Assembly: GCA_030374765.1 (NCBI GenBank)
Contig: JARGXX010000132.1
Coordinates: 208,501 to 272,500 of the forward strand
DNA length: 64,000 nucleotides
Source: Agarophyton chilense
Taxonomy: Eukaryota > Rhodophyta > Florideophyceae > Gracilariales > Gracilariaceae
Direction of reading: 5' to 3'
A model generated the notes under the pieces. It saw nothing but the letters and a program-made list of their open reading frames with translations, ran no database searches and was not told the origin of the DNA. Positions 25,233 to 63,287 of the stretch are shown here, one piece after another (position 1 is the stretch's first letter; every line of letters begins with the position of its first letter). Both the position numbers and the translations under genes were made by a program.

Positions 25233-25334
25233 TGGCCACACCGTCTCGACGGAAGAATAGAAAGCAAACCGGTGAGACCGGAGAAAACCCGTTAAACGGA
25301 AAACAACCTCAGAGAGGACACAAGCGGTCTTGAC

Positions 25335-25352
25335 TTCTAAGTCGGGAGACCA
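25335..25352 (-). other. Primer-binding site candidate
   Basis: TGGTCTCCCGACTTAGAA on the minus strand starts three bases inside the 5' LTR. It begins with TGG as expected for pairing to a tRNA 3' CCA end. The same 18 bases follow the 5' LTR of the other Ty3/gypsy element (42847-42864). I cannot name the tRNA from sequence alone. Confidence 0.7.
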
Positions 25353-25355
25353 ATT

Positions 25356-33012: not shown

Positions 33013-36000
33013 GACTAGTTTGACTATCTGAAAATGTGACACAGCAATGAATGTGATGTTGTTTTACAGTCCCCGGGTGCTGCGTCTCATTTTTGTTTCG
33101 GGTTGGGTATGACTTGAAGTTCGCTGCGGAGAAACTGGTATCTGTCTCTATGTAATGGTTTTGTGAATATATCGGCCCTCATCACCGTGGTGGGGATTCT
33201 GTGTACCGTTATTGTGTTTTCCGCGACATGTTGTTGAAGGAAGTGGTGGCGTATATCAATATAGTTCATTTTCTTAGTTGGGGCTCGGTTCTCAGCAATG
33301 GGAACTGCGTATTTGTTATCAATGTGATGCGGAGCGGGGTTGGCCCACGACGTGTGGGAGTCCTGCAATAGTTTTCGTAACCACGTGGTGTGTCGAGTTG
33401 CTTTTGTTGCAGCTAGGTACTCGGCTTCGGTGGGAGAGAGCACTACTACATTCTGCTTACGAGACGTCCATGAGATGGGTGTGGAGTTGAGGCAATGTAC
33501 TGTCCCGGAGATAGATTTTCGATCCTTTTCATTCGCGAAATTGGCGTCCCTATATACATTAAGAGATTGTGGCAGGATCGCTGCTGTAGTAGCGAAGAGG
33601 AGTCCGTGAGCTCTTGTGCCTTTTACGTATCGAAAAAGGCATTTGATTTCTTGCTGATGATGTTTCTGTGAGGATTTTATATGTTGTGATAAGCGATTGG
33701 TGACATGCGCGGTGTCTGGGCGGGTAGTGTCGATAATATACCTTATTTCTCCGAGGATATGTCGGTATGTTGTGGCTTCTGTGGCGGGCAGTGGCTTGCC
33801 TGGTTGTTGTTGATGTATGACTGTGAGGTTGTTGTACGGTGTGAAGGTTGGGTTGCAGTTGTTCGTCCCTGTTTGTTGGAGTATGCAGTCGATGGAATCA
33901 GGTTGCGAGAGGTGTTTTCCTTGCGAGGTGCTTGTGATGGTCCAGTTTAGGAATCGAGTGGGTGTGCCTAACCTCTTGAGTTTGTACTTGGTCAACATAT
34001 TGCGATAAAGTTCTTCAAGCAGGGATTGATGCGATTCTAAGACCAGAAATTCATCTATTGTTGTGCTTACGACTGTGACGCCGTTGTTTTTTTTGAGTTT
34101 GTAGAGGTCAGGATCATGTTCCGAGCTAGTGAATCCTAAGGAGGTGAAAAATGTTTGTAGTTCGTGGTTGTAGTTTTATGGCGCTGGAGGAGAACCGTAG
34201 ATGTTTCCGAAAAGTCGCCCATACGTGCTGTTATGTCGGTAAGATCCGTTGAAGTTCGGCATTTGCTTCACGTATACTGGTTTTTCATGTTTGTATTGTT
34301 CATGAAGATAGGCTGATTTGATATCAAAATGTTCTAAGGGCAGGTTCATTGTGGCGTGGATTGCTAACAGCATGCGTTGAGTTGTCCAATCAGCCGTGCA
34401 TGTAGTGGTGTGCTTTGGGTCATAGTGCAATCCCCGTTTCATCAGATCTCCTCTAAGGTTGCACATGGCCTTACGTTGGATAATGCTACCCTCGGCGGAG
34501 CGCTTGTACAGGTTTAGTATCATGAGCGGAATAACGGATTCTGGGGGTGGTTTTAAGTGTTTGGGTAGCCAGGAGATGCTTTGGTGTGCATCTATATTGA
34601 GCAGTTCTGCGTCGTGCGCTTCTTGCCATTGGTTAGCGTCCGGGTATTTACGGGCCTGTGCCAGGATGAGGGGAGGTGGTGTGGTGATGGTTATTTCATT
34701 TGGTGGCTGTTGTTTGTAGTTCGCTCGCACTTTGAAGGCTGTGGGTGTGGTGTCTGTAGGGTCTGTTGATTTTTGATTCGGGTGGAAGTCCTGTGCTCTT
34801 ATCTGTTGGTATGTTTGTGTGCAAAGATTCAGTACTGCAACGTGTGTTAAGGTATTGGCATACATGTATCGAGCGGGGTCTGCTCGTCGTTCTAATTTCG
34901 CTTTTGGTGCATACACTGGGATCATTCCCAGCTCTCCGAATGTGAATAGGCGTGTGAGTTGTGGTTTGGTATTAAACCAGAGCTGGTATGGAGAGGTGTC
35001 TGTTGTGGAATGGTGTATGAGATTGTATTTGAATACCGTGTCTCGAGCCGCATCTTCGCCGTAGGAATCATCGAGTTTGGCTGTCGTGAGGAGTGCTCTG
35101 ATGGATTCCATGATTGTGCGGTTAAGTCTTTCTGCTATGCCATTCTCCTGTGGTTGATGGAGGGTTCTGAGGTGTTGCTGTATGGATTGTTTGTGGTATA
35201 TGGCCTGCATCTTTTTGGATGGATACTCTTTGGCATTTTCACTACGGCGGTGTTGTCGTGGGTGGCCTAGTTTGTGTTTGATGTGGTGTAGTGTTGTGTC
35301 GATATGTTCTGGTAAATCTTTGCGGTCCCGAATGAAGTGTGCGATGAGGAATTTTGCTTGTTGCACAAACTACAAGAAGCATGTGGTTGTTCCCATGTCG
35401 TGATGTGGGTTTGATAGGGCCACAAGTATCGGAGCTGACGTATGCGCCGGTGGGATATTCATGGGCTTTGCGCTTGTGCGGCGCCGGGTGACGTTTTGCA
35501 TGATAGCAAACGCTGCATGTTAGTCGAACATCTGCTGGAAGTGTGGATGGCATGAGTGGGAGGAGTCTTCTATTTGGCGTTAGTGCCAGTTTTTGTGGGT
35601 TTGCATGGTTGAGTCTAGTATGCCAGTTGTGTGTGCTTATTTGGAGGTTGGAGCGACGTGTGTTTTGACTGGGGTTGATTACATGTCGGAGTGAAGTTGT
35701 GGTTGTTGGAGGTCTTGACGTTTGTGTGACTGGTGGAGGTAGTACTGCTGGTTTGGTGCTGTGAGGTTGCGACGGGATTTGTATCCGGTTTTGCTTGCGT
35801 GTCTTGTTTTGGTTTGTCCTTGTTTTCTTTTTTCCGGTGCTGCTTCTCTTTTGGTGTGTTGATAGGCAAGGCTCGTGCGGTGTGCGCTTCTGTGGATAGG
35901 ATAGTCTTGGTATGGAGGCGGTATTGGTTGTTGCGCCAGGGTGCTGTCGCTGTGACTGCTGGGGGGTTGGCTGTTGCGTCTATGATGTAACCGCGTTTTG

Positions 36001-41932: not shown

Positions 41933-42844
41933 TGTAGAACAACGCCCAGTTAGGGGATACTTGAAGATGCAACTCATAGAATGAGGATTGAACCCTCCGA
42001 GGGTTATGATTATGATCCCCTCTAAGGTGTGCTGAGGTGGCACTGTTTTCTGGTTATATTTCGCCTATAAGGGAAAATTCGGATGGCCCATGGTTGGATT
42101 GGCCCCGTGATACACGTGGCTTAATTTTGGCACCGATTTTCGGATATTTGTAGAACGTTGGACTTTTGGGCCCTGGCAGTGGGATCTCCACGTGTATGGC
42201 CCTGAGCAGGTGTGCATTACTGTAGAGTCTAGTTAGTGGGCCCTACTTAGGGAGGCGAGATCTGACAGTCCGAGCTCAGAGTAAATGGTAACCAAGGTTG
42301 GTCTTCGATACCTTAAGAGGTTCTTCGTCGCCATCGTTTCGGCCTTACAACCCGGAACGGGCTGTGGTTAGCAACGCCTGCGTAGGGACACGACTCCACT
42401 TGGAGAGTGCCCACGTTTGGGTTCCGTGCAACCACCCCCTTGGGACCGCTCAGACAACCTGCGTGCCCGATACCCCGTGGGGGTTCTGCTTACTTGTTGC
42501 GTGCTTTTTGTGTTTCCTTTCGAGGACAGGTTTTCGCCCCTGTATTGGGTTTCCTTTTTTGTTTCGCCCCTTTTCTGGTTCTCGGGTCCGGTGCCTGTTA
42601 GTGCCCGACACTCGCCCCGTTTTTCCTCTTCGCCGGATTTTCCCCCATTCTTTGGGATACCCATACCCATTCCCGATCCACGGTTTCTACCCCTCACCTC
42701 CGTCGGTACTGCCGGAATCCCCCGTGGGAGTTACACCCCACACTACGGGTGGAACGGAGGGCTCTGTCTCTGAGTCTGCCTCCCCCAGGGAGCAAGGCTT
42801 CGAACACCTTGAGAGCACTTCCCGTCGCCGGGTTTTGCTCCACA
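41933..42844 (+). repeat. 5' LTR of the split Ty3/gypsy element
   Basis: 912 bp, TGTAGAACAACG to GCTCCACA. Two bases separate it from the primer-binding site. Confidence 0.93.
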
Positions 42845-42846
42845 AG

Positions 42847-42864
42847 TGGTCTCCCGACTTAGAA
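42847..42864 (+). other. Primer-binding site candidate
   Basis: TGGTCTCCCGACTTAGAA, identical to the site of the complete element at 25335-25352, so both families appear to use the same tRNA primer. Confidence 0.7.
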
Positions 42865-43069: not shown

Positions 43070-45100
43070 ATGACGCCGCCTACCCGTGGTTCCAGGACTG
43101 GATCGAACCGTCAAGCGGATTCAGTGCCCCCGGCCCCGCCTAGGTCGAGGAGCTCTATTCCCGAAGGTCGGAACGATTCCGGTATCGATCCGGACACTCG
43201 GAGAGCACCCTCAGTGGTTTCAGGTCCTCGAGAGGTCGTGGCTGTGGGCCCAGCTTCAGTGGTGGAGACCCCCTCAGCAGCACCCCGAAGTCGGGCCGAC
43301 CCTGAATTACAGCGCCTGGAGACTCAAATTGATAACGCCAACGCGGCTCACATCGAGCTCTTTCAGGAGGTTACTACCCTCCGCCTCAAGGTGGAGGACG
43401 CCCAGGTGCGGGGAGTCGCCGATGACCTTCGTACCCTGAGGAGGGATGTGAACTCCCTTTTGGAAAGCTTTGGTACCCCTGGGGTCTTTATCCAGGAGTA
43501 CCGGAGTTTCGTGGAGGAACACCGCGTGCAAGCGGAACGCTTCCGAGCTCGGCTGGACACCCTCGAGGCCATTATCCGTATGGACGGAGACGCAGAAGCC
43601 ACGAAGGATAAACCCGACGTTTCGGAAGACGAAGAACACCGCTCCGCTAAACGGGACCACCGCAAGTCAAAGAAGAGCGTTCACCTCCAAGAGGATTTAT
43701 CGGATTCCGATCCCAATCGCTCGTCATCGAGTTCGTCCTCCGAATCTTCGGATAGTGAAGATGAACGCCGGTCATCCCGGGCGACTCGGTCGAAGGCTAC
43801 TTACACCTCTCAAGGGGCAACCCGTACCCGGAAGAAGGGTAGGAAACACCTTGGATTAAGGGAGCTGAAGCCGACGAATCCTCTCTTTCGGAAGCTGCTA
43901 TCGTACCGCTATTACCGGTTGGATAACCCTTCGGGAGATCGAACATCCCGCGGAACGGGTAAGGTCAAGGACTACATCAAAAGGCTGAGCATCACCCTAC
44001 AGAAGAGGGAGTTCACAGGAACAGACCCAATTCTGGTGCTCGATTTCCTTGCGAGGTTCGTCCAGGAGGCTGACATCCTCGGTATTAGTGAAGCGCAAGC
44101 GTATCTTGCATTACCCTATTTCTTAAAGGGGATGGCTGAAGACCAGTTCAACTCCGTCCGTGGATCATCCCGAGCCTCGGAAGGGGGAGTCACGTGCTGG
44201 CCCGAAGCGGTGCAGTACCTCTTGAGGTCATACGCTACTGGAAATGCGATTCAGGAAGCAATCCTTGCATTAAGGGATACGCGGCAGAAGCCGATGGAAA
44301 CCGAAACGGTGTATTCAACTCGCTTGAATAAAGCGTTTCACCGATGCGGGAATGTATTCCCCGCCTACGAGAGATGCTCCATGTTTGTGGATGGTTTGGA
44401 CCCCTCGATAAGGGCATTGGTTGCCCGACATCGGGAAGAGAAGCGCAAGCTGACCTACTTAGAACTGGTTCAGTACGCCCAGGCTGAGGGGGATACTCTC
44501 CGTGCCCGGCAGAACCGAAAGAGTCGGCCCACACGTGCACTCCTCGCCGATGGAGGTAACTCGTCTTTGTCACTTGCAGGAGGCCCTGCCCCTGTGGGGG
44601 TCAATGATAACATTCACTTCATGGGAAGTAACCCCGAATCTATGGGTACGTCTGAGTTGCCGTCGACATCCGCTCCGACTACGGATGAAGACCCTGCGCT
44701 CTATACCCAAGGACGGAGGGTGCCAGCCGCATCGCTACCTTTTGCGAATACCGCTGCTCGGTTCTCTCGCCCCGGATGGAGGGATACAGCACCACGTCGC
44801 GTGGATTCACGTCCACAACCGAACCCGGCAGAGCTGATTTTCTATTTGTGTTACCTCCGTGGTCACAAAGCACCAGACTGCACATTTCCCCGGCGGGAGG
44901 GTTCACGAATTATCGCTCAGTACGAGGCTCTGACCCCTGAGGAGAAAGCTCGAGTCCCGAGTAGGTCCTATGAGGAACAAAGGATACTCCGAGCTCACCT
45001 TGCTAACAGGGATACAGAACTTGTACCCGCGAACGGGGAACAACCGGTCCCCTTCGAGGCAGCTGCACCGAATTCGGTGTGGTCCGCTTCGAAAAACTAA
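43070..45100 (+). CDS. gag: Gag region of the split Ty3/gypsy element
   Basis: A 676-residue open frame from ATG 43070, homologous to the gag at 23205-25232: coiled-coil-like part (ELQRLETQIDNANAAH onward), Ser/Asp-rich patch, then strongly conserved capsid-like motifs (KPTNPLFRKLLSYRYYRLD, EADILGISEAQAYLALPYFL, RGSSRASEGGVTCWPEAVQY) and a zinc-knuckle-like segment near the end. It ends just inside the start of the protease-bearing frame. Confidence 0.8.
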   Translation: MTPPTRGSRTGSNRQADSVPPAPPRSRSSIPEGRNDSGIDPDTRRAPSVVSGPREVVAVGPASVVETPSAAPRSRADPELQRLETQIDNANAAHIELFQEVTTLRLKVEDAQVRGVADDLRTLRRDVNSLLESFGTPGVFIQEYRSFVEEHRVQAERFRARLDTLEAIIRMDGDAEATKDKPDVSEDEEHRSAKRDHRKSKKSVHLQEDLSDSDPNRSSSSSSSESSDSEDERRSSRATRSKATYTSQGATRTRKKGRKHLGLRELKPTNPLFRKLLSYRYYRLDNPSGDRTSRGTGKVKDYIKRLSITLQKREFTGTDPILVLDFLARFVQEADILGISEAQAYLALPYFLKGMAEDQFNSVRGSSRASEGGVTCWPEAVQYLLRSYATGNAIQEAILALRDTRQKPMETETVYSTRLNKAFHRCGNVFPAYERCSMFVDGLDPSIRALVARHREEKRKLTYLELVQYAQAEGDTLRARQNRKSRPTRALLADGGNSSLSLAGGPAPVGVNDNIHFMGSNPESMGTSELPSTSAPTTDEDPALYTQGRRVPAASLPFANTAARFSRPGWRDTAPRRVDSRPQPNPAELIFYLCYLRGHKAPDCTFPRREGSRIIAQYEALTPEEKARVPSRSYEEQRILRAHLANRDTELVPANGEQPVPFEAAAPNSVWSASKN

Positions 45101-45872
45101 ACTTGGGAGTCTCTCCTGCGGGAGGGGCGTCTTCTAAGCCGGAGATGAAGACGCCCGAGGCGCTCCAGCTTCGCTCCCCAGCTGTGACTATCCTTTCAAG
45201 GAGAACGGCTGACACCGACGTTAACTCGGGATACTTTAGTGTCCTCCGTCGCCCGTGGATACGGTCCCGTAATCTCCGTATTCCGGATCGAGTTATGGTA
45301 ATGGCCAAGCGGAATTATAAAGTATTCGCCGACTTAGGCCTGTCCAACCAGTTTATGGTTGGTCAAATATCTGTCCTGGATACAAGAGCCGCTCCTAACT
45401 TAATTCATGTGGAATTGTTACCCCCGCTGCTCCGGGTCCAAGTTAGTACCGGTCCACGTTTGGATATCGCCGATGCGAACAACAAACCGCTACGGACACT
45501 GGGTACAATTTCCCTCATGGTGAGGTTAGGCTCCTATCTCGTTCAACTGGAGTTTATTGTATGCAAGTCACTTGCAGCACCAGTCATACTGGGTTGTGAC
45601 TTTTGCGACCGCTTCGTGGAAGCCAACCGTCCTCGGAATAGAACTGTGGAACTCGAAGACGGGTCTACGATCCCAATCGTTCGTAAACCCTTACAGGGAG
45701 CAGCGCGAACACGCGTCCCTCTCCCCGTCGCGCAGAAATCTGTGAAGAAGGACCCGGTGTCTACACAGGTAAAGGTTGCGAAGTCAGTGGCTATCCCGCC
45801 AGAAACCCAGGTTTTGGTCACAGTTGTTACCAAGCAAATTGGTGTGCATGTGGTACAACCGAACCCGTCTCT
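45079..45872 (+). mobile_element. Protease segment of the split Ty3/gypsy pol
   Basis: Homologous to the front of the pol at 23186 (RRPWIRSRNLRIPDRVMVMAKRNYKVFADLGL, LDTRAAPNLI, VILGCDFCDRFVEA). It stops at the left end of the inserted DNA transposon. Treated as part of a broken element. Confidence 0.8.
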
Positions 45873-45910
45873 CCCAGTGCGCAGCATGAGTGGACAAAAT
45901 ATGGCCGTAA
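45873..45910 (+). repeat. Left terminal inverted repeat of the EnSpm-like element
   Basis: Begins CCCAGTGCGCAG; matches the reverse complement of 56462-56499 at the outer seven bases, a CAG, and an inner AATATGGCCG. Confidence 0.65.
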
Positions 45911-46046
45911 TATGGCCGTACTTAGACCTTAATTTTATTTAAAATTTCCGGCTAAAAACAGGCCAAAAATGGCCTGAAATATGCCTTTTAACGTATGCCA
46001 AAATATGGCCGACTATTGTAGGACGAACACTGCACCAACTATGGCC
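45901..46046 (+). repeat. Subterminal ATGGCC repeats
   Basis: ATGGCC occurs at 45901, 45912, 45969, 46005 and 46041. GGCC-centred motifs recur near the right end (about 56335-56470). Short clustered subterminal motifs are typical binding sites for EnSpm-type accessory proteins; the role here is inferred. Confidence 0.55.
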
Positions 46047-46954
46047 GAGAATTAGAACACGTCAGCGTACCTCATGAGTCCGAGATCATACGCAAAAAGG
46101 GCGTAATAGGACTATATTGAGCCGAAACACGGCTGGAAAATTGGGCGAACCAAGTCCATTCTCAGTTCCGATCTGGTTCGAAATAAGAACCCTTCTCCAC
46201 AATCAAGACAAATGATTGTTGGATATGGACGCTTGTTTCTTTCAGTTTCGGACAGATAGAACACCGAATTGTGACCTTATCAGGTCCATTAACTCTCCAA
46301 TACAACACATATTTCACACCATTTAGGTTCTAGTTCTGGACATAGTTTACTCGTAAAATCCACCGAGAGGGGCCTTCTCGAGTCCCACTTCTTATGAAGA
46401 TGATAGTCTCCAAGCTCTCTCATACAAAGATGGAATTTCCCTCACTTAGACTTACTTAGACGAAAAAACTACTTTGTATGATCAAAACTGTATCGCATCT
46501 AGAACTCACACTTGATGCAAGTCAAGCAATGAACAACTACAACCATTTCGTACACCAAGAACCGCCTCATACAGATTTCAAATCGTACCGTTCGCCCAAT
46601 CTATGGTGATACATACGAACTTCATGGTAACACAAAGTTAATCGGGAGTCCTGACACATTGAAATCAAAAGAACGATAGTTGGTTAGTCTGGTGAAACAT
46701 ATGAGGTTTTAATCATGGTTGCAAACGGGAGGAACTCACTGTACGTAATCCGTGGTTGGCGATAGCACCATAAACGTTATGTTGAATATGCTTCGCAATA
46801 GAGTAATTTTGAACATGATATCGTTTGCGAAAGGTTAGGGACCTGGAGCAGTTAGAGGTGTTAGCCAGCAGAGCCCGCATAAATCAATGAAATCGAGTGT
46901 ACTTACAATAGGAAACATGTCATTAGCAACACGACAGGACTATCACAAAGTCTC

Positions 46955-48346
46955 TCACGGCTTCATGGAGCGAGGGGCGCGGAATCGAGAAACAGCTGCC
47001 TTCGAATTTCTAATACGAGAGCTCTGACGTGCTTCTCTGTGGCGTGCAACCCAAGTTTCCTCTGCCCCGTGAAGCACAGTTGAGTCAGACTCATCTTCAG
47101 ATGTTTCGCTTTCATGTAGCCTCTGCATGGTCCTGGATTTGGAGATGCCTTTTCTGTATGCCCTTCCCATCACTCCTTTCCGTGTTGTCTTACGCTGCCG
47201 CTGCTGTTTTTGTGGCGCTTGAGAGTGATACTCATCATGTTGGTCTTTGTTGTCATCATCGAATTCACCCGAATTGTTGGACAATGTGGAAATTTGGTTG
47301 AAGGGGCGCTTGTTCGAGGCCCTCTCGGTCACAGCAGCCTGCAACTGGTTACTGTTCTGCTCGTTGCGATAGGGCTCACCGCTCTGATCGTGAATACTAT
47401 GTTGATCGGGTTGCGGAGGATGGCCACTAATGTCTCTTGGAAAGCACCTAGCAGACGAACCGGCGTTACTAATTGAATGCAGTGCAGAGTGGCCGTGGCG
47501 TTGAAGTACTTGATCGTCATCTGGAAGAGGTCCAACTTGTGCAGACCTGTCATTGCCCCTTGCAGTGCGCTTTCGCGAACGTTGATTCTGGTTTTGTCGT
47601 GGAGTTTGGCTAGGGCGGCATCTCCCACCGTCAGACCTGTAATTCATTCGCATCGCACCACCTTGCACATGCTCCCCTGACCGGACATGCATAGAGAGAA
47701 CACGAGACACAACGGGAGACACAACGGGAGACACAACGGGATTGGGGCCGTTCTGCTTAGGTGCATGTGCACTCAAGTCGTTCTGGATTCAGCCAAGATC
47801 AGTGCACAATAAACGTCTCCTGGCTGCCTTTTTCGAAGCTTCGATCAAAGCCTTCTTATCGCGTTGCATGGATTCCTTGATAAACTCCGTCGCCAGCCAG
47901 AAGTTCTGAGCCGCTCCGAGAACTGGAAATGCATCCACAATCTTCCGCTTGAGATGCGTCAGTTGAGTGGCATACTCGATTTTCACAGAAGTGAATGTCC
48001 TTTCTCCGCGCCTTAATGACATCCTCTGATACAGAAACTGCCTGATGAGGTCCTTGACTGCGTTTGCCATCTCTGCATACACAGGATAGTTTTCATTCGA
48101 TGGAGCCGAAGTTCCCATCTGCTCCCGGTACAGACGGTTAAAAACTAAGCGCGCTGAAAGAACGGTGCCGGTGGGAACGCCAGGCCTATCTGATACCTTC
48201 ATTCTCCGTTTATAGGCCGCTGTTGGAATGCCGATAGTGTTTGGGAGAACTATAGGACCCCCCGACCGGCTGTCGATGATGCTTTCCTGCTGCATCGACG
48301 ACTGATTGTAATCTGCAGTGACTGGGTTAATAACTCGAGACCCCAT
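46955..48346 (-). CDS. Unknown basic protein with one in-frame TGA
   Basis: A single frame of 464 codons from ATG 48346 to 46955. The first 185 residues are helical and basic near their end (KKAARRR). One TGA follows (47789-47791) and the same frame continues with a low-complexity, Gln/Arg/Ser-rich part including VVSPVVSPVVS and basic clusters (KQQRQRKTTRKG). Either the gene ends at the TGA (185 residues), a short intron removes it, or the stop is a decay or read-through event. Position next to the transposase and basic character make a DNA-binding accessory protein (TnpA-like role) plausible, but I recognise no family. Confidence 0.45.
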
Positions 48347-48984
48347 GATGCATGAACAAACCTAAGTCATTGAAAACGCAGAGCAAACGAAATATATGCA
48401 TGAAAGTTAGCAGAAGATGAAGCACTCTCATCAATGTAAATTTGAACTAGGCAGTACTTACAATGCGTTAACCGTACGTTGGTACGCTGCCGTCGCTTTC
48501 GTTCGAAGAAGTCGAAAGAACGAATACGGTACACGGTGCACGGGAACGGAAATGAACGAGATGGGGAATTGGATGTGGACCGGAGCGACGGGAAAGAGAC
48601 AGAAGGGATGAAATGGAGCCTGGAAGGGGAAGACTCGGGAGGTGAAGCTCGAAGAAATGTTTGAGGGGGAACTTATATGGAAGTCGCATCGAAAGAAAAT
48701 AAGCGGACTTCAAACGAAAGCGCCACCAAGCTTTCGGGTGAACCTTCTCCATTTGCCAAAAAGTTGGTCACAAAATGCCCTTTCTACATTCGGTCACAAA
48801 TTTGATAAACTTTGACCCTTGAACCTGCCCGGAGAGGTAGAGGGAGCTAGGACTATACGCCGGATCTGCGTTAGCCATCAATATTCAAATTCTGAACTCC
48901 ATGATAACGCGGCTACCTCGTTTTAGCATCATCGTTCAATACTGAGTTCCTCCTTCTCACAATATCCTTCTCTGCAGCTCCAGA

Positions 48985-51900
48985 ATGAACATGTCCACGT
49001 CCTTCTTTCAATCTAGAAAGCGTAAGGGGAGATGGCAAATGCGTGGCAAACGATGGGAACCCCCAGCACCCGTCTCTCAAGAAAGCTCCGAACAATATAC
49101 GAGGCTTCCCGAGCAAGCCCCTTGCAGAAAAAGAATGTGCAGATGGGAGCTCGAGCCCGAGCAGAAATTGCTGAATGATGAGCAATCTATTTCTCCACTT
49201 CAAACGCAGAAAGATTTGAGCGAAATGGAGGAGAGCTCCGATGTGAGGGGATTTGATCTTGGTAGAGAGGAGGATTCACCCCTTCATGTGCCCATCGTGA
49301 ATCCTCAAAACAGTTTCCATAATCTTCCCGTGGATGCGAAAAATGAGGATGCGCAACTTTCGTTGTTGCAACATGCCGCTATCAGTCCTTTGGATGCGTA
49401 TGCTTTCGATATAGACAGACAGAGCTCTGGCTTCTATGAATCCGATGATGGCCAAATGTCCAGAAGTGCCGAAGATTCTGACCCTCAACAGGCTTCCCAA
49501 CTTTCCCTTTCCTCAGATGCCATTGTTGGTTTAGAAACGAGGAATACAGGTGTACAAAGCGCTGATGAGTTCAGAAGGCTTGGAGCCTTTCTCTATACTG
49601 CTGAACTGTCAGGTATATCTCAGAGAACATTAGAAAAGCTTCTCACTGTTGCCCCAATCAACGCCATGGTTTCATACCGTACAATGCTTTCGTTCGCTGT
49701 TCGCAACTCCCTCGCGACGGAATCATATGTGCAGATGTGCAGGGAGGGTCATACTGCTTCCGCCGGCAGGCTGAGAAACACAGTTAAATGTTCTGCCTGT
49801 GAAAATACTATCAAAGGAATTGGAAGTGCAAAGTTCTGGTACTTGAGACCGACAGTTGCAATCAGGGCACTATGCCGAGTTCGTGACTCGTTCCAAGAAC
49901 TTATTGAAGGATGCAAGCGAGCCAAAGATGCTTGCATGGAATCAATAAATGTTGCCGAGGACCAAGATTTCCATCATGGTAATATGTTTCAAAGAAAATT
50001 TTCCAGCTGCATGCAGCAGTGGGATGAAGAATCAGATGTGCTGCATTTGTTTCTCACATTCTCCACAGATGGTTTTGAGTGCGCAAAGAACAGAAAGGGG
50101 CAACCAATATCTTCTTGGCCCCTCGTTTGCACAGTGTTGAACTTCAGCGTAGAGGAACGATCGAGAGCAAATAACACCCTCATCCTCGCCGTTGTACCTG
50201 GCTCTCATGTATCCCAGTACTTTGACACATTCATGTCTGAAATTGTGAAAGACTTTCGCCAGCTACAGAAAGGTGTCCAGGTTGTCTGCCATGATAAGCG
50301 TATCCGACTTGTCCGAGCACACGTACTTTTCTTCACGGCTGACTGGCCTGCAGCTTCAAAACTGCTGGGGTACGTTAGACACACCGGTACAGTGTTTTGT
50401 AGATTCTGCCTCAAGCAAAAGACGTACATACCCGAGTGTAACAGCTCTTACGTTGTTCCTCATATTTCATCTGGCCTTGTGAAAGCTGTGTTGGAAAAGA
50501 GGAGAGGGCGTAACATTGTCTACAAAGTTGGGGACATTATCAACATCGAATGCGGCTCGGCTCGCCACGAATGCGATATCATTTCCACGTGGGGCAAGCT
50601 CAAACGACTCGGCGATGATGCTGCTGCCGGAATGAAGGAAATTGCACGAAAAACCGGCATCAAACGTGATTCTTGTTTTCGAAAGCTTTCGATGGACTTC
50701 AAGTACTCTTTTCCATACGACGTGATGCATCTGGTACTCTTGGGCTGGAGTAAACATTTGCTGAAGCTTCTCTGCGGATTTCACGCTCGCCATGAGAAGA
50801 TGGAAACGACTCCAAGCTACTGTATACCAAGGAACACACTCCACAAGATAGATAGTAACATGGATCGATGTTCAGGAGGAATTCCTGTTTCATGGGGGAG
50901 GCCACCGTTGGCTCTCCGTGACATAGAAAGATATAAGGCCAAGAACTTCAAACGTCAGTTAGAAATGTACCTCGTTCCATTTCTGCATCGTGAAGGAGTT
51001 GAGGGGAAAATATTAACTATATGTAGGCTGACGTCGAGGCTGATATCAATATGCTTCCAATATCAGTGTGTGGATGGTAAAGTTGAAGAGTTAAAGCATG
51101 TTGTGGAGGAGCTGTACGCAAGGTTCGTCGATTTGTTCTACAGAAAACCTTCAGATGCGTACTGCTTCACACCTACAACTCATGCAGTATTGCACCTTCC
51201 AGACCTTTTGAAACAGTGTGGTCCTCTTCCAACGACATCTCAGTTTCTTATCGAGCGACTTCTTGGGGACATGGGAAGGCGAATGACCTCCAAGACAAAT
51301 GTATACTCTCACTTGTTCCATAAGAACCATAGACTATTCGCCCTTCGGATTATGAACAATGGACTTGCTCCGCGAGTCGTCGAAGAGAAAACTCTGAGGC
51401 TCACGAGCGAAACAAGTGATCAGGACTCTGAATCATCAGGCGAAGGGAAAAGTACACGTTATACCAGTACAGGCGTCGAGTGTCATGGAACTGGAATCGA
51501 GAGCGAGGTATGCGGAGAAAAAAGAAGTTCTATATCAAGGTTCATGAGGCAGAACGTCTCCAATGGCGTCCAAAGCTATAGAATCACTTCTCTCAAACAG
51601 TACCAGTGGGCCACAATCTTCAAAAGTAATCAACAATTTTCCATTGAAACCAAGGAGTGGTACACGAAACGATGCAAGTCCACACGTGGAGCGCGTCAAA
51701 AGCATTTCATCGCGGGAGAGTTTTTGAGGGTTGACGAAGCACAGATCGATGCTGATTCTCATTCTGGAGTATCCCATACGACATCACTTCGAAAGACGAG
51801 AGATCTGTACTATGGTGAGGTACAACGGATATTCGAGGCCTGCATCAAAATAAATAGACAAGATGGGAAGCGAGTGCTCATGTTAGCTCTTTTTCAGATC

Positions 51901-52119
51901 AAGTGGCAGTATGGGTGTGTGCATGAGGAACAACTACATCTTGTGTACACGAGGGATAGAAGGCGTTCGGAGGTTTCCATTGAGACAAGTGAATGTATTC
52001 AACGCCTTGTCGGAGTACTTGACATATCTGGAAGGCGATATTTTGTTGACAAGGTTAGAAACAAGAGAATAAGCCGCGGTGACCTCCAAATTCCGGGCGC
52101 CCTTGCCGTGTGGGTATAG
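48985..52119 (+). CDS. EnSpm/CACTA-type (Tnp2-like) transposase
   Basis: 1044 residues, ATG 48985, no interruption. The N-terminal third is acidic and Ser-rich; a Cys pair (CSAC) lies near residue 270. The core shows the family pattern: LTFSTDGF (Asp362) with ISSWPLVCTVLNF, then LLGYVRHTGTVFCRFC, FPYDVMHLVLLGW (Asp579), and HLPDLLKQCGPL followed by LIERLLGDMGRRM (Glu757), matching the HL..GP...ER..G.L block of Tnp2/DUF4218 transposases. Asp362, Asp579 and Glu757 are candidate catalytic residues by position. It would cut and paste the element by its ends. The intact frame suggests recent activity. Its last 65 nt overlap the channel gene on the other strand. Confidence 0.82.
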   Translation: MNMSTSFFQSRKRKGRWQMRGKRWEPPAPVSQESSEQYTRLPEQAPCRKRMCRWELEPEQKLLNDEQSISPLQTQKDLSEMEESSDVRGFDLGREEDSPLHVPIVNPQNSFHNLPVDAKNEDAQLSLLQHAAISPLDAYAFDIDRQSSGFYESDDGQMSRSAEDSDPQQASQLSLSSDAIVGLETRNTGVQSADEFRRLGAFLYTAELSGISQRTLEKLLTVAPINAMVSYRTMLSFAVRNSLATESYVQMCREGHTASAGRLRNTVKCSACENTIKGIGSAKFWYLRPTVAIRALCRVRDSFQELIEGCKRAKDACMESINVAEDQDFHHGNMFQRKFSSCMQQWDEESDVLHLFLTFSTDGFECAKNRKGQPISSWPLVCTVLNFSVEERSRANNTLILAVVPGSHVSQYFDTFMSEIVKDFRQLQKGVQVVCHDKRIRLVRAHVLFFTADWPAASKLLGYVRHTGTVFCRFCLKQKTYIPECNSSYVVPHISSGLVKAVLEKRRGRNIVYKVGDIINIECGSARHECDIISTWGKLKRLGDDAAAGMKEIARKTGIKRDSCFRKLSMDFKYSFPYDVMHLVLLGWSKHLLKLLCGFHARHEKMETTPSYCIPRNTLHKIDSNMDRCSGGIPVSWGRPPLALRDIERYKAKNFKRQLEMYLVPFLHREGVEGKILTICRLTSRLISICFQYQCVDGKVEELKHVVEELYARFVDLFYRKPSDAYCFTPTTHAVLHLPDLLKQCGPLPTTSQFLIERLLGDMGRRMTSKTNVYSHLFHKNHRLFALRIMNNGLAPRVVEEKTLRLTSETSDQDSESSGEGKSTRYTSTGVECHGTGIESEVCGEKRSSISRFMRQNVSNGVQSYRITSLKQYQWATIFKSNQQFSIETKEWYTKRCKSTRGARQKHFIAGEFLRVDEAQIDADSHSGVSHTTSLRKTRDLYYGEVQRIFEACIKINRQDGKRVLMLALFQIKWQYGCVHEEQLHLVYTRDRRRSEVSIETSECIQRLVGVLDISGRRYFVDKVRNKRISRGDLQIPGALAVWV

Positions 52120-55100
52120 TGGACGACGTTCTTTCGTTCTCGAAGCATGGATCGCAAAGGACGAAGACGCCATCTGTGTTAGCGCATAATGTGTTAAGAT
52201 CGGGATGTGTATAGACGTAGGGTAACAAATTATCTATCACCGCTTTCTCCGTGTATTTCAGTTGCCCAAGGACATAAGTGACTGTATGTATCCTTGAACC
52301 CGCACCCGTCGCACCGTGGCCTTCTTTGTCCGCTGGAGCAGTATATTTCTTCTCGTTAGTTCCCGCAAAGCCTGATAATTGATTTTGGGCATCTGTTGTA
52401 AAGTCTGCGTCGGATGCGTCGTTCACATCAATCGTGCTTGACGTTTCTTCATCGGATGCAACAGCCATTTCATCATTGTGAGCCTCACCATCCAATCGTC
52501 CATGGACTTCATTCCTTCCTTCCTGTTCTTGAACATGACTGGGAAGCACTTCTCGGAAAGTGCCAAAGACTCTTCGGAGAAGTCGCCTCACGCGAATGAA
52601 GACAGATGATCCCTCGATTTCATTTCCTTCTTCGCCAGATAAAGACTCGTTTGTCAGCTGTCCCAAGTAGCGCAACATGGCTGCTCCCCTCTTCTTTCGG
52701 GATTTGGTGGGCAACAGCGTAGGTGCAGTACCAGAACGGTAAATTCCAAGCGGAGTTACGCCTAATCTGATGAGGGCGTTGAAAATTTTCTCGTATCGTA
52801 CTAGCTCAAGATCACCTCTTCCAGCTGTATTGCGGGAATCAAACATGGAAGGCGGAATCCTGATAAGGCGGATCTTCATTCCAAAACTCTGCGAGTTAGT
52901 ACCAAGAATATTGGTAAACAAATTAATGAAACCTGGTTCAATGTACTCCCGCGCCAGTAAAGTGATGGCATTAGATTGTACAAGCAGCTCCCCTGACGCA
53001 TATCTACGCTTCGGCGAGCTCTAACGGCACCAGGCTTAGGCGCGGGATCACCCTCGAACTCTGGAACGATATTAGCGGGGCTGTCCGGAATGATACCCCT
53101 CAAGTTTTTTAAGGGTTGTTGCGAAAGTCTTCCGTGGAGAGCATTTGACACATTGTGACGTGTTGACCCCTGACGAATCTCGTTACCTTGGCCGACGACA
53201 GTGCGTTCCCGTGATGGCGCCTGGGGTTTGACTGCAGATGCTGCATTTGAAGCTCCTTCAGTGGAACATGTATTGCGATTTTCACCAGCTAGAGGACCCT
53301 GACTATCTTCTTCTCCAAGATTTTCACCCTTTCTACGTGGATGCAATGGTTTTCGAAAGTACTCAGACGACCATTCTTCTAAAACATCTGAACGAAAAGA
53401 AAGATTCTGATCGTCTTTGGTATCGAAATTTAAAGTAGAAAGAGTGAGTATGGTTTGAGAGTCGGGACACTTTCGTTTTTGCCTGTAGTGAGCTGTGGTT
53501 ACTGCTGTGTTTGCATGGGCTATCCTAGCCTTCCTACACGTGGCCCTCGATGTAGAAGATACTTCTGCAAAGAAAAGGTATTGTTCAACAACTCGAGATG
53601 ACTTAGCGCAAAATTCCGACGATATGCAGGGATGAACGACGACAACATTTGCTTTGTGTGTTCCTCTGACTGACATACGTACATCTTTTTTCCACAGGTT
53701 CGCAAGCAGCAAAGTAAGTGTCTCCAACGCCCCCTCACCCTTGGGCGCAATGATGACGTGGTCTTTCAAGTCTTCTGGGACGCGATGAGCTTTGGCTTTT
53801 GTTAGAAGCCATTCTGTCCTCTCTTCTTGCTGTGCAATTCTCTCCGAATCTTCCTCATCAAAGAGCGCGTCAAGATCATCCCCTGACTGGTTTCGGCGTT
53901 TTGTAAAAGAGAACAGAATGATGAAGATATTTCACCCAGTTCTAGAATCTGACTTGCCCCCAGCTCATGAACATTGGGTGGGGCATTCTCTCTCGCCGTT
54001 TGCGATTGTCCCATTGACTCCAGAGGCGGATGAGTGGTTGAAACCAATTTTTCTCGACGTAGCTTTGCATAGCACAGTGCTACAATGTTTAGAACGGCAG
54101 CAACTGCTCCCAGTTCATGATACGTCAACACCATCACTAAATCACCACGGGAAAGCAATGCATTGGTGTTAAGGACAAGTCTTGGAACAGGATTACTGAC
54201 ATCACTGATAGCCACGATGATAAGCCCTAGTTGACACAGCTCTGTTGCTAAATCCTTTATCGCAACGCCGTCGAGCTCTTTCGGAACAATTGCATAAGCG
54301 AGCTCGCACGATGCTCCCATATGGTATTCCGATAGCCACGGTGGCTCGTTTTCTGAGAATTCTGGAGTTTGCACGTCAAGGTACATATTTGACATTAAAG
54401 TACCTACCCCATTCGCTCTTACATTTCCAGATATCAACGCCATTTGAATTTCTTGAAGACAAACGAGTTGTGAACGAGCAAGATCATCTTTCCCACGACC
54501 TGTTTCATAATTTCTTCTAGTATCCTCTTGAGTGTCGAGGTATCTATGCACATGTTCTTCAAATCTTCTCAGAACACTGCCTTTGCGTTGTAGCTCTGGA
54601 ATAGTTTCGTATTCGAGCTCTAGGACTTTAAAATATAATCCGGTATATGCTGCGTTTCTACTCATTTCCTTTCCTCTGAAATATGTCTCCTCTTTCGAAA
54701 AAGTAGATGGTGTGATGAGAGCAGTGTATGTCTGTAGATTAGAATTTTCTAGGATAGTCTGAGCGTAAATGGGAATATCTGTCCGAATGTTTCTGATCGC
54801 CAAGGCGCTCATAACGGTTTCGGTGTCTTGGATTGACGGTTCTTCACCGTTCCTAAACGAGCTCAAAATAAACACAGCATCAGCAGTCTCAATCCCGGCA
54901 CGACTGAGATCTAAGGAGTTCCCAACAGAACCATGCATGTACTGCACCCTGTTCTGCAAGAAGTAATTCTTCGCAATATACTGATACCAATCAGAGTTAG
55001 ACCATTGTACTTCGCCTACGAGTACAACAATCCTGGCATTCTTGTTTGAACCGCGGGGGTCTGAAAAAAACTCTGAAATGAATTGGATGAGGCCCGTACG

Positions 55101-56042
55101 GTTTGGAGATCCGGTTATAATGACGTGGCGAGTGTTCTTGTTCTTAACGAACCATCCGCTCCCGCGACGACGACGGGCATGCGTCACGAGCTCCGAAACG
55201 ATGGAAGCAAATATAACAATACCTATGATAATGATGAACAAAGTGAAGATGCGTCCTTGCAAAGTCGAGGGAGAGAAATCGCCATATCCTACGGTCGACA
55301 AAGTGACAATAATGAAGTAGCATGAATTCAAAAACGTCCATTCTCCAAAATTGAACCATCTTTCGCGAAAAGCTGTAGGGAGAAGATCACCTGGAATTTC
55401 GAGAAGCTGGATGGCACCAGCAAGCGTGTAAAACAGCACTAGATTCTGAACAAGTAGCTTCAAAAGAAGCCTTCTGGAGCTCATCATTCGAATAAAAAGT
55501 AGTCTTTCCAAGATCAAATAGGAAAGATATAGCGAAACCCCGCGAAGGAAAGCTAAGTTCAGATATGCATTCGGACCATCAGCAATCCACATCGATGGGT
55601 AGGAGAAGGAATCAACCAGAATTTTTATGGAGAAAACGGATGAGAAAGCTGACTCATTTGATAGTAAACGCAGTACAGCATCGATAACAAGTAGCCTCGA
55701 AGATATTCCGTACAAAACTTTGATGTACGTACTTACATTCTGCAAGTATGTGCCATGTACGTGCACAACACATACCAGCAAGTTAAGGGCGAATCTGATA
55801 ACTTCAAGAAATAAAAACAAGTGTAAATTCCTACCACGGTATTTCATGAAAAAGCCTTGTAGTTTTGGCAAGCGACGAAGGGAGCGATGAAAATTTCGCG
55901 GTCCATAATTGATAAGGTAACGGCGACAATAGTCAAGCAGGAATGCGACGAAAGCCGTGACTCCAAACGTTATCAGACCGAGATACAGAGAACGCCCAAT
56001 GAACCTCCAAAGCAAATCGTTTTTGGGCTCAGCCAAGTCCAT
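52055..56042 (-). CDS. BK/Slo-type potassium channel with two RCK domains
   Basis: A spliced gene read leftward from ATG 56042. Exon 1 (56042-53936, 702 codons plus one base) has several membrane segments, pore filter TVGYGD (250-255), S6 (about 264-288) and RCK1 from HVIITG (306). A 53-nt intron (53935-53883, GTGAAA...TCAG) precedes exon 2, which carries RCK2 (DHVIIAPKGEGALETLTLLLANL, DSQTILTL) and a disordered loop. A second intron ends at 53021 (donor unresolved), and exon 3 (53020-52055) completes RCK2 (RRYASGELLVQSN, VTPLGIYRS, TKSRKK, YVYTHPDLNTL). About 1300 residues, slightly longer than animal BK channels. Such channels pass K+ and are gated by Ca2+ or other ligands through the RCK ring. 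No break seen. It lies wholly inside the DNA transposon. Confidence 0.85.
53883..53935 (-). other. 53-nt intron in the channel gene
   Basis: Donor CTGG/GTGAAA and acceptor CCAGTCAG/GG. Exon 1 has 2107 bases (phase 1), and adding GG gives a Gly codon that joins RCK1-side and RCK2-side frames smoothly. Confidence 0.75.
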
Positions 56043-56461
56043 GGATTTTGAGGCGAATGCAACAGAACTCCCCGTGGCTTAACCACGAATTCCTGAGAGC
56101 GGGAATTGAAGGCTCGGATGGCCACGGTTTTGAGGTGGATGTCTGAAATATGACAGCGTGAAATTTGGAGCACGACTCTTTTTTGTGTTTTACGATGCAG
56201 CAAAGCAAAGAGGCCTCCTAATGTTGAATGTCACGAGACTGCCGCAAATGGATTTTCAAATATAAAATGCCGAAATAGGGCTGGAGGCATCTCCATTGGG
56301 CTACATTGCGTCCATTTCTCGGACGGCCGTCACCTGCTGGCCTGCTTTTGGCCACTTTACGACGCATCAATATTTTTTTAAGATAATGCCACTTGTTTGG
56401 CGGCCCTGTGCCGGCCACTTCTGGACGTTCAAAATAAAATTTGGATTTAATCAAGTCCCAT

Positions 56462-56499
56462 TATCGGCCATATTCTATCCCAAACCACTGTTCACTGGG
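56462..56499 (-). repeat. Right terminal inverted repeat of the EnSpm-like element
   Basis: On the minus strand begins CCCAGTGAACAG, followed by GAATATGGCCG. See the left repeat. Confidence 0.65.
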
Positions 56500-56503
56500 C
56501 TCT

Positions 56504-58907
56504 GTATACGCGGCGTCAACTCGCCCTTGCGAATGGGGTTGTCTCCGTGGAACCGAATAAACCTTTCAAGGTTTCGGTAGCCAACTTTGGAAAGACAACG
56601 CAGCATTTGGTCAAACACCAGATCCTGGGTTCTGTTCTTCCACACCCGCATGCGGTTGTACCTACAAAGATCTCTATCGCAGAGGTCCTTGGTGTGGCGG
56701 ACCCTAAGGAGGGGGAGGACACTGCCGAAATCGCGGAAGACGGTGAGCATACGACTGCAGCTCCACACGCTGAACACTTTAAACCTCAGGAGGTTACGGC
56801 CCCTATCACAGGAGCAGACCAGACGGATCCTGTTCAGGAATTGGGAAAATGGGATCTCAACCATGTACCCGCATCTCATCGGGAGAAGCTGAGGCACATG
56901 CTTCGTGAATTTACCCCCATGTGGGATGGTTCCCTTAGAACTATTGGGATTACAGAACACCGCATCAACTTGTTACCGAACACTTGGCCTATTGCCCAAC
57001 ACCCTTACAGGGCTGGACCGAAAGCTCGGGAAGAGGAGAAATCTCAGGTGGAGAAGATGCTTAAAGCGGGCGTAATTGAACCTGCCCAGTCCGCTTGGGC
57101 CTCACCAGTGGTGTTAGTTCCGAAACCGGATGGATCGTGGCGTTTCTGCATCGATTACAGACGCCTGAACGAGGTAACCATTAAGGATGTGTACCCGATC
57201 CCTCGGATGGACGAATACATCGACTCCCTTGGGAGCGCTACTGTTTTCTCTACCCTTGACGCCAATTCGGGGTACTGGCAAGTCCCTATTAGGGAGGAAG
57301 ATCGAGACAAGACGGCTTTCGTGTGTCATCAAGGATTTTTCCGATTCCGGAGGATGCCTTTTGGGTTGACAAATGCCCTCGCAACGTTTCAACGGGCGAT
57401 AGACATTCTGTTGGCTCCCTTCAAGTGGAGGACGTGTCTAGTGTATTTAGACGACATTATTGTCTTCCCCAACAACCTGGATGACCACCTCGAACACGTC
57501 AGGGACGTAATGAAGATACTCCGCGACGCGGGAATCACCTTGAAACTCAAGAAGTGCGAGTTTTTCACCGATTCGGTTAAGTATCTGGGTCATATCATCC
57601 GTCCCGGACAGCTTTCAATCGATGAAGTACGAGTGAAATCCTTGAAGGAAGCAAAACACCCGAAAACTCAAACGGAGTTGCGATCCGTCTTAGGTCTGTG
57701 TAACGTGTATCGACGATTCGTCCCGAACTTTGCGGATATTGCCACCCCCCTCAACAGGCTCCTGACGAAGGGACAACCAGTTGAACTGGAATCTTTGGGC
57801 GACGCGGAAGCGTCTGCCTTCACGGCACTGGTGAATGCCGTAACATCACCGCCAATCTTGGCTCTACCCAATCCTGGGCTCCCTTACGAAGTGGACACCG
57901 ATGCTAGTGCAAACCAAGTAGGGTGTGTACTGTTCCAATCCTCTGAGGATGGTGAACGTCACCCTATTGGGTACTGGTCACGTTCCCTGAATGTCCATGA
58001 AAGGAACTACTCGGTCTCTGAGAAAGAATGTTTAGCCGTCGTGTGGGCCTTAGCTACACTTCGCCCCTATCTGATGGGTACTCGTTTCAAAGTCCATACG
58101 GACCACGCATGCTTGCGTTGGCTCCTGGAGATCTCCGAACCCTCGGGCCGCCTTATGCGCTGGCGTCTCCGACTGTCGGAATTCGACTTTAAGATCCTGT
58201 ACAAGAAAGGGAAGCTGAACACTCAGGCTGATGCACTATCCCGCTTGGGAACCACAGCGGAAACGGAAGCCTACGAGGACGATGACATCCCATGCTTTAT
58301 GGAATCGGACCTCAAGGGAGGAGCTCAACCGCTGACGGATGATGTTTGTGACGATATACTCGTCAACGAGAGTCTGGATTCGCCGACCCGCTCTTTAACT
58401 TCGAATACTCCCGAACCTGGGCCCGCTCCCTCAAGGGCCCAGTCAACGAACTCTTACAGAGTTACTCCCCCACCGGAGGTAATCAAGCCTCCTGGCTCTC
58501 CGCCTAAGGAGGGGGAGGAGGACTTAGTTCCTTCGCAGGACGATGTTTCGGCGTCAGCCAGTCGCCCTAACACGGAATCTAGTTCTCACAGTGAGACGGC
58601 GAGCCCGACCGAGCCGGCGACAGAGAAGTCACACCCCCAGCGTATGGGTAGCGACATCACCGCCGACCCAGCCGAGCACGACGTCAGAAAAGATGACGAA
58701 ACCCCGCCTAGGGAGAGTCGTGTGGTGAACTCCGCACCCGGAACGCCTACAGAGCCGCCGATCACCCGCCGCCGCAGAAGAGACACTGAGGTGTGGCACA
58801 CTCAAACCCCGCTTTCTCGGGAACGAGCTGTGTCAGCGGACCCGCACGGGGAAGATCTCGACGACGAGGTTGACCAAATTTGGCTCTCCGTTATGGAATG
58901 GGAATAG
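56504..58907 (+). mobile_element. RT and RNase H segment of the split Ty3/gypsy pol
   Basis: Resumes right of the DNA transposon. RT with YLDDIIVF and the WRFCIDYRRLNEVT and FGLTNALATFQRAID motifs, RNase H with DTDASANQVG and TDHACLRWLLE, then a Pro/Ser-rich stretch. Part of a broken element; homologous to the pol at 17844-23186. Confidence 0.85.
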
Positions 58908-61992: not shown

Positions 61993-62904
61993 TGTAGAGC
62001 AACGCCCAGTTAGGGGATACTTGAAGATGCAACTCATAGAATGAGGATTGAACCCTCCGAGGGTTATGATTATGATCCCCTCTAAGGTGTGCTGAGGTGG
62101 CACTGTTTTCTGGTTATATTTCGCCTATAAGGGAAAATTCGGATGGCCCATGGTTGGATTGGCCCTGTGATACACGTGGCTTAATTTTGGCACCGATTTT
62201 CGGATATTTGTAGAACGTTGGACTTTTGGGCCCTGGCAGTGGGATCTCCACGTGTATGGCCCTGAGCAGGTGTGCACTACTGTAGAGTTTAGTTAGTGGG
62301 CCCTACTTAGGGAGGCGAGATCTGACAGTCCGAGCTCAGAGTAAATGGTAACCAAGGTTGGTCTTCGATACCTTTAGAGGTTCTTCGTCGCCATCGTTTC
62401 GGCCTTACAACCCGGAACGGGCTGTGGTTAGCAACGCCTGCGTAGGGACACGACTCCACTTGGAGAGTTCCCACGTTTGGGTTCCGTGCAACCACCCCTT
62501 TGGGACCGCTCAGACGACCTGCGTGCACGATACCCCGTGGGGGTTCTGCTTACTTGTTGCGTGCTTTTTGTGTTTCCTTTCGAGGACAGGTTTTCGCCCC
62601 TGTATTGGGTTTCTTTTGTTGTTTCGCCCCTTTTCCGGTTGTCGGGTCCGGTGCCTATTAGTGCCCGACCCTCGCCCCGTTTTTCCTCTTCGCCGGATTT
62701 TCCCCCATTCTTTGGGATACCCATACCCATTCCCGATCCACGGTTTCTACCCCTCACCTCCGTCGGTACTGCCGGAATCCCCCGTGGGAGTTACACCCCA
62801 CACTACGGGTGGAACGGAGGGCTCTGTCTCTGAGTCTGCCTCCCCCAGGGAGCAAGGCTTCGAACACCTTGAGAGCACTTCCAGTCGCCGGGTTTTGCTC
62901 CACA
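61993..62904 (+). repeat. 3' LTR of the split Ty3/gypsy element
   Basis: 912 bp, preceded by the polypurine tract AAGGAGGGGGAGA. About 98% identical to 41933-42844. Confidence 0.93.
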
Positions 62905-62909
62905 AGTGG

Positions 62910-63287
62910 TGTGTTTCTTTCTTTTGTTGGTTTTTTTTGTTTAGGTCACTACACCGCCCTTGTAAAGGGTTATTTATAACCGTCTTTGTTTCGCTTATCC
63001 AGTGTGGGTACCGGTTTCATAGGTCTGGACGCTTGGTGGTGCGTCCTATTTCGCCCTACTTTTTCGACTTACACTTTGCCGTTGTCCGCGGAATATCCTT
63101 GAACTTGGATCTTCCTTTGATTCGTCCCCTTTTCCTAGGTTCATCACCTTCGTAGGTATTGCCTGAACCACCGTGGTCTTACACCCATGCATCGGTGGCA
63201 CGAAGGCTCGTTCGCTGAGTTACCCCTCTTCACGAGAGAGGGACTCGAACACCCGAGAGGTATTTTCCCATCCGGGATTGCTCTACA
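62910..63287 (+). repeat. Right half of an older split LTR
   Basis: Its end (GGTATTGCCTGAACC..., TTACACCCATG, ACTCGAACACC, GGGATTGCTCTACA) lines up with the end of the younger LTRs (GGTACTGCCGGAA..., TTACACCCCA, CTTCGAACACC, GGGTTTTGCTCCACA) at clearly lower identity. The left half lies before 41928, so the younger element landed inside this LTR. Confidence 0.5.

Follow-up and report, generated by a model that had tools for sequence, protein, structure and literature searches.

A CACTA-like transposon in a red alga and its captured, decaying copy of a host BK-like channel gene

The ends of EnSpm/CACTA transposons begin with 5'-CACTA, and the target duplication of these elements is 3 bp. In the part of PMC8903248 drawn on here, the end motif used for Arabidopsis is CACTACAA, and the target duplication is given as 5 nt. 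In plants, DNA transposons, among them Pack-CACTA, are established agents of transduplication, which usually ends in pseudogenes (PMC13317346 and PMC8903248, in the parts cited), and gene capture of this kind concerns mainly flowering plants in the excerpts of the literature cited here. We describe a CACTA-like transposon in a stretch of 64,000 nucleotides from the red alga Agarophyton chilense (C131:208501-272500; hereafter the window), which carries a nearly full-length copy of a host gene for a BK-like potassium channel. The whole genome was searched (79.76 Mb in 135 contigs, which labels such as C1 and C79 denote), and elements were sorted into the window's own subfamily A1 with channel cargo, a sister subfamily A2 with proteasome-ATPase cargo, and an older related family B. 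With high confidence, we favor as a whole the reading that A1 captured a piece of the C79 gene in one event, that the piece multiplied as a passenger, and that it then decayed.

A mobile element with a captured host gene

The CCCAGTG and CACTGGG ends that a sequence-only reading of the window had placed at 45873-56499, flanked by CTCT, were borne out, and the search of the rest of the genome that it had proposed showed that ends, transposase, and channel all recur elsewhere. A 1.2-kb probe from the left end gave 16 genome matches, 10 of which, that in the window included, span from the element edge to the probe end; a right-end probe of equal length gave 21, part of them partial or only 72-77% identical. 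Read by eye, target duplications flanked all 11 copies with both ends paired; the C98 locus (left end only) and the left-end matches without a terminus on C113, C25, and C58 were omitted. Six duplications were of 4 bp (window, CTCT; C95, GATA; C1:1192746, GCAA; C28, AGTA; C75, GTAC; C1:1573383, GATA) and five of 3 bp (C1:243551, CAT; C68, CGT; C111:1063896, GCG; C121, GAC; C88, GAT). From left to right, the element consists of TATGGCCG motifs, an accessory frame on the minus strand, a transposase on the plus strand, the channel region on the minus strand, and the right end.

Empty sites, the existence of which the sequence-only reading had proposed to check, were found within the same genome. 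The flank searches scored 40 of 447 (left) and 40 of 281 (right) candidates, and a match without a listed partner is uninformative; among the listed left-flank matches (n = 39), at least 12 had a right-flank match directly adjoining and thus represent unoccupied target sites. The paired matches overlapped by exactly 4 bp in 11 of the 12, with CTCT present once (for example, C68:3594044-3594443 and 3594440-3594839); in the twelfth, where the left match ended 2 bp early, the overlap was 2 bp. Together, these results show that the block 45873-56499 is a real DNA transposon that has moved.

The same host-derived piece was present in all seven channel-bearing elements (window, C95, C68, C1:243551, C28, C1:1192746, and C75). 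It comprises 202 bp 5' of the ATG, the first 1,306 codons, and two bases of codon 1307 of a gene on C79, where it measures 4,122 bp; the host's last 20 codons and stop are missing from the captured frame, which continues into a foreign tail. Comparison of A1 with channel-less elements and with C79 revealed element/host microhomology at both junctions, TC (2 bp) on the left and GCCG (4 bp) on the right, and the channel-less relatives C111:1063896 (8.6 kb) and C1:1573383 (16.4 kb) held other sequence in the slot. Since the same 4,122-bp piece with microhomology joins occurs in seven of seven elements, the data argue for one capture. Because lesions differ between subgroups of copies, as described below, the captured frame was probably nearly complete at birth and accompanied by its 5' flank.

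The donor gene is still present. C79:883541-887524 is a single open frame of 1,327 codons, whose translation is identical to the protein P0001 across all 1,327 residues. P0001 is a EukProt entry named after GEZJ01003097.1, which, from the form of the accession, we take to be a transcriptome assembly. The frame being unbroken and equal to P0001, the host gene is intact, intronless, and probably transcribed. A 53-nt intron had been read into the channel; this was rejected because the host gene is an uninterrupted frame, and introns appear only because the deletions of the window copy change the frame. P0001 contains an Ion_trans_2 K+ pore, Slo-like_RCK in two stretches, and BK_channel_a, so that the predicted C79 product combines the K+ pore and two Slo-type RCK regions by which we recognized BK/Slo channels. 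In the 9.8 kb read around C79, the captured stretch was the only element-like sequence, and element ends were absent.

The window copy retains much of this protein. Its frame encodes the TVGYGD pore and Slo-like RCK and BK_channel_a domains, and its pore and RCK region matched slowpoke and KCNMA1 chains in the PDB (best E 1.1e-36). Its closest homologues were P0001 (96%), P0002 (78%), and P0003 ('Ion channel', Gracilaria domingensis; 74%). When it was placed against host BK genes, as the sequence-only reading had suggested, the window copy clustered with C79, P0002, and P0003 (100/100; 29 rows, midpoint root), apart from the host paralogues on C4 and C37 (each 31% identical) and from animal Slo rows. 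The pore and domains attributed to the cargo therefore stand; the description of it as complete, intact, and spliced does not, given the 1-bp and 16-bp deletions and the loss of the last 20 codons.

In the mechanism that we propose, a Tnp2-type A1 transposon captured 4,122 bp of the BK-like gene into the slot between the transposase stop and the right end, by a route that may have been microhomology-assisted repair copying, as the TC and GCCG joins suggest. The element would move by means of its transposase and ends, and the channel piece was multiplied as a passenger through transposition and decayed without measurable constraint.

Decay of the channel copies

The channel was disrupted in seven of seven element copies, and the window copy does not form a full-length uninterrupted frame. 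Compared with C79, the window, C68, and C1:243551 copies have two deletions in common, one of 1 bp at codon 715 and one of 16 bp at codon 1013. At codon 784, the C95 copy carries a 2-bp insertion with a stop; further along, it has lost 1 bp at codon 1092 and has a stop at 1169. The C75 copy shows the same two later lesions (1092 and 1169), preceded by a stop at 263 and a 1-bp deletion at 527. Different lesions were found in the C28 copy, which has lost 1 bp at codon 80, has a stop at 836, has gained 1 bp at 1037, and also contains a 9-bp insertion that keeps the frame, and in the C1:1192746 copy, where a stop at 234 is followed by the loss of 8 bp at 551 and the gain of 1 bp at 996.

We then compared substitutions with a neutral simulation of the same spectrum, excluding coding bases 2380-2920, where the divergent patch considered below is located. 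The 202 distinct substitutions relative to C79 comprised 144 nonsynonymous, 54 synonymous, and 4 stop-creating changes, against simulated means of 139, 53, and 10, giving a ratio of nonsynonymous to synonymous change (dN/dS) of about 1.01. Nine of the 202 changes were common to all seven copies and may date from either of the two branches, host or element. Distances were star-like around C79, amounting to 0.8-1.5% in two coding zones outside the patch and to 0-2% in the 202-bp upstream stretch. The substitutions thus look neutral.

In agreement with the intact Tnp2-like transposase noted from the sequence, the window carries an open 1,044-residue frame with PF02992. Among whole-length transposase matches (survey: 43 of 294 first-look candidates scored), 3 of 10 were free of stops (window, C68, and C1:246625), and all three of these copies contain the same broken channel with the same lesions, indicating that transposition is independent of the channel. 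In addition, the C68 and C1:243551 copies differ by 0-0.2% in the compared stretches yet occupy different target sites; copies already bearing the broken channel have transposed again. In the window copy, an in-frame stop interrupts the accessory frame; this stop was absent at all 13 other loci where the stretch was found. With this frame stopped, the transposase is the sole uninterrupted frame of the window copy. Neither the transposase nor the accessory frame scored above the cut-off in NCBIfam. Among the proteins searched, P0038 alone (33%) was related to the transposase, versus numerous relatives inside this genome.

Some points weigh against this account of capture and neutral decay. The count of four stop-creating changes, reached in 2.45% of simulations, falls below the neutral mean of 10 and is the one hint of some early constraint. 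The lesion at codon 1092 that the C95 and C75 copies have in common adjoins short runs of A and T and may have arisen more than once. The channel copies may have a residual role through a truncated protein, antisense, or small RNA. As for the repair route, the junctions are what was observed, and the route itself is what we infer from them. Even so, judged from its sequence, the channel copy appears to be a passenger pseudogene with no detectable present role. That a nearly full-length ion-channel gene had been picked up and multiplied was thus confirmed, whereas the working channel was not; nor did we find support for the proposed effects, a change in the ion balance of the host or selection for the spread of the element, since the donor on C79 is intact and the copies are disrupted, with substitutions that fit neutral decay.

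Related families and alternative explanations

Decayed pieces of the same channel gene were detected in a second family, B. Those at four places on C111 show 75-77% DNA identity and cover approximately codons 323-1263, and those on C16 and C6 show about 84% and start at approximately codon 615. At the C111, C16, and C6 loci, other common sequence (about 1.5 kb in the longer loci) adjoins the channel piece; the longest locus, L073, has an A-like right end downstream, and relatives of the transposase (30-31% identity) lie about 0.7 kb upstream in two of the four C111 copies. The coordinates suggest that these loci represent one element type. At positions for which P0002 and P0003 share a state different from that of C79, three of the four C111 copies sided with C79 by 37:3, 32:4, and 36:2, the C16 copy by 26:2, and the C6 copy by 19:1, while 27, 26, 25, 4, and 9 sites, respectively, matched neither. 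Since the B copies side with C79 over P0002 and P0003, B gained the gene after the split from those species. Their differences from C79 are spread roughly evenly across codon positions, as in an unconstrained copy. The different limits and greater age of the B pieces make a second, independent capture of the same gene the likelier reading.

In the A2 elements, the slot is occupied by other cargo, a frame that resembles proteasome-type AAA ATPases in their C-terminal part. It was found in six copies without channel matches (C1:1574310, C113, C111, C88, C121, and C25), five of which are 94% identical to the one on C1 and one of which has a stop; its nearest host relative is an open 419-residue frame on C117 (76%). 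The channel as a fixed component of the family is thereby ruled out for A2. We raise as a tentative and rather doubtful proposal that the slot between the transposase and the right end is a recurrent cargo bay, into which the BK-like gene was captured independently at least twice (A1 and B) and which holds the proteasome-ATPase piece in A2. With about 6,800-9,460 annotated genes per related genome (PMC10388701, in the part cited), two captures of one gene would be unlikely by chance. Silencing of elements that carry pieces of important host genes would threaten the donor gene, so such cargo might shelter the elements.

The alternative that survives best, although we regard it as improbable, is that the channel is an old component of a wider transposon group and that gene conversion from C79, instead of a new capture, renewed the A1 copy. 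The decayed channel pieces of B and the transposase relatives upstream of two of the four C111 copies would fit such a history, as would a patch in three A1 copies resembling a B-type copy: this stretch of about 320 bp is 93% identical to the decayed C16 copy and closer to it than to C79, suggesting that the families exchanged sequence or drew on a common unseen source. However, A1 joins channel-less sister sequence directly, with short microhomology at both junctions; its piece extends past those of B at either end, by 202 bp upstream plus codons 1 to about 323 and by codons from about 1263 to 1307; and the A2 slot holds other cargo. A working spliced BK-type channel that changes the ion balance of the host, or for which the spread of the element selects, is less probable still. 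The piece is nearly full length, retains 202 bp of 5' flank, and has acquired fewer stops than in the neutral simulation, but every copy is disrupted, dN/dS is close to one, the host gene has no intron to be spliced, and intact transposases accompany a broken channel.

We give hardly any weight to the reverse derivation, in which the C79 gene would be domesticated transposon cargo: C79 is nearly identical to the element copies, but its C-terminal end is missing from all seven elements and resembles that of P0002 from another species, and neither element ends nor anything else element-like was found in its surrounding 9.8 kb. Nothing was found in favor of an assembly join or an ordinary chromosomal locus, which the target duplications and unoccupied sites, together with same-base ends in many copies, exclude for practical purposes. 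Neither of the findings that the sequence-only reading had named as refuting it, ends found nowhere else and an assembly join, was thus obtained.

The element interrupts a Ty3/gypsy retroelement. Insertion inside its coding region, as the sequence-only reading had it, was corroborated by reverse transcriptase (RVT_1) and RNase H matches in the right half, while a Pfam scan of the left-half frames gave no match. Its long terminal repeats (LTRs), which had been judged to differ by about 1.8%, showed 16 mismatches in 918 bp (1.74%) in a BLAST comparison between the transposon's two flanks; a direct-repeat search of 40800-61800, a range that ends before the second LTR starts, reported no family. 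Each flank matched 39 other places among the matches listed, and the retroelement belongs to a large family. Coordinates are collected in Table 1.

Table 1. Positions of the features discussed, in the window unless a locus or contig is named
Feature	Position	Strand	Remarks
Whole transposon, subfamily A1	45873..56499		10,627 bp; same-base ends in other copies
Left terminal inverted repeat CCCAGTG	45873..45879	+	
Right terminal inverted repeat CACTGGG	56493..56499	-	
Four TATGGCCG subterminal motifs (45900, 45911, 46004, 46040)	45900..46047	+	inverted single copy at 56465-56472
Accessory frame	46955..48361	-	no known domain (Pfam, NCBIfam); one in-frame stop in window copy
Tnp2-like transposase, open	48985..52119	+	1,044 residues; PF02992 8.1e-10, 38.7 bits vs cut-off 28.6
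Foreign tail, antisense over transposase 3' end, to stop	52055..52139	-	28 residues from codon 1307; open in 7/7
Captured piece of host BK-like gene	52140..56244	-	C79:883339-887460 in host
16-bp deletion site, codon 1013	53005..53006	-	vs C79
Divergent patch, limits approximate	53300..53630	-	about 12% from C79; common to window, C68, C1:243551
1-bp deletion site, codon 715	53898..53899	-	vs C79
Element's own right end	56245..56499		255 bp; common to channel-less copies on C111, C88, C1, C113, C25, C121 (right-end probe 932-1190)
Target duplication CTCT, left copy	45869..45872		once only at unoccupied sites
Target duplication CTCT, right copy	56500..56503		flank of right end
5' LTR of interrupted Ty3/gypsy element	41933..42850	+	918 bp; 98.26% identity to 61993-62910
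Retroelement coding region, left half up to insertion	43070..45872	+	two overlapping open frames, first 676 residues
Retroelement coding region, right half (reverse transcriptase, RNase H)	56504..58907	+	PF00078 (RVT_1) 8.4e-38; PF17917 4.4e-36
3' LTR of interrupted Ty3/gypsy element	61993..62910	+	BLAST of two flanks
Proteasome-ATPase-like frame of A2	L027:2428-2970		also L025
B loci	L073 (C111:769000-778999); L053/L080/L081 (C16); L060 (C6)		

Some further loci were recorded beside these. Between the transposase and the right end, the 16.4-kb copy (L069, L068; C1:1575100-1587200) is about 8 kb longer than its 8.6-kb counterpart and has open frames for which Pfam gave no match. Two left-end loci, L011 (C113) and L013 (C25), agree at all 3,909 of 3,909 bp, a stretch that takes in their flanks, and reflect either duplication in the very recent past or a duplicate made in assembly; L012, on the 41.6-kb contig C58, is partly the same sequence. 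Elsewhere in the window, we labeled by eye what are presumably a Lon-like protease frame (1696-4497), an RRM-protein frame (4574-5641), a second gypsy-like element with a 1,780-residue open frame (17844-25607), and copia-like pieces (33087-35366). An Rfam scan of the window at gathering thresholds gave zero matches.

Comparison with known systems

None of the literature matches listed (titles and abstract starts) describes an element of this kind in a red alga, and the words CACTA and gene capture are absent from the available part of a paper on Gracilaria sex chromosomes (PMC12502185). Four Gracilaria genomes are described as 46-66% repetitive, with 6,807-9,460 genes (PMC10388701, in the part cited). 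In the present case, a single genome holds the donor, elements with and without the channel, unoccupied sites, and decaying descendants, so that the junctions and the fate of the captured gene can be read directly. The transposon copies are about 97-99% identical to the real gene and risk being miscounted as extra channel genes. The apparent second capture by a related family makes random versus gene-favoring capture testable, and of these findings, the probable capture of one gene on two occasions most deserves to be followed.

The A1 elements resemble EnSpm/CACTA elements in their Tnp2 (Transposase_21) domain, subterminal repeats, combination of an accessory frame with a transposase, and short target duplications. 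In contrast, their ends read CCCAGTG...CACTGGG rather than CACTA...TAGTG, and their target duplications are of 3 bp (5/11) or 4 bp (6/11); 3 bp is usual for CACTA, and 5 nt is given in the cited part of PMC8903248. Because the ends fail the CACTA motif, we call the element CACTA-like and do not file it as CACTA. Like Pack-TYPE elements, A1 has host coding DNA between transposon ends, duplicated and spread (PMC8903248 and PMC13317346, in part). Pack-TYPE elements are, however, defined as non-autonomous in the cited part of PMC8903248, whereas A1 encodes a transposase, open in the window, C68, and C1:246625, and hence is not Pack-TYPE; its piece, moreover, is a nearly whole gene with 5' flank, in a red-algal host.

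Soybean Tgm-Express is likewise a CACTA-type element mobilizing pieces of host genes, but it carries several gene fragments, according to the excerpt cited (PMC1947982), whereas one nearly complete gene in a single piece is found here. The fungal TET/JBP dioxygenase transposons also have a host-type protein gene beside the transposase; there, as far as the cited portion of PMC12730594 describes, the enzyme recurs across diverse transposon groups, whereas the A1 cargo is young and disrupted in all seven copies. Compared with BK/Slo channels, the pore and RCK region are alike, but the element copy is disrupted; it is the host that has the intact gene, which groups separately from the animal rows of the tree. 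The host gene was copied, the donor is still present, and the copy was multiplied, which together constitute transduplication. The process is already known; what is unusual is how well it is recorded in this red alga, a relative of Gracilaria.

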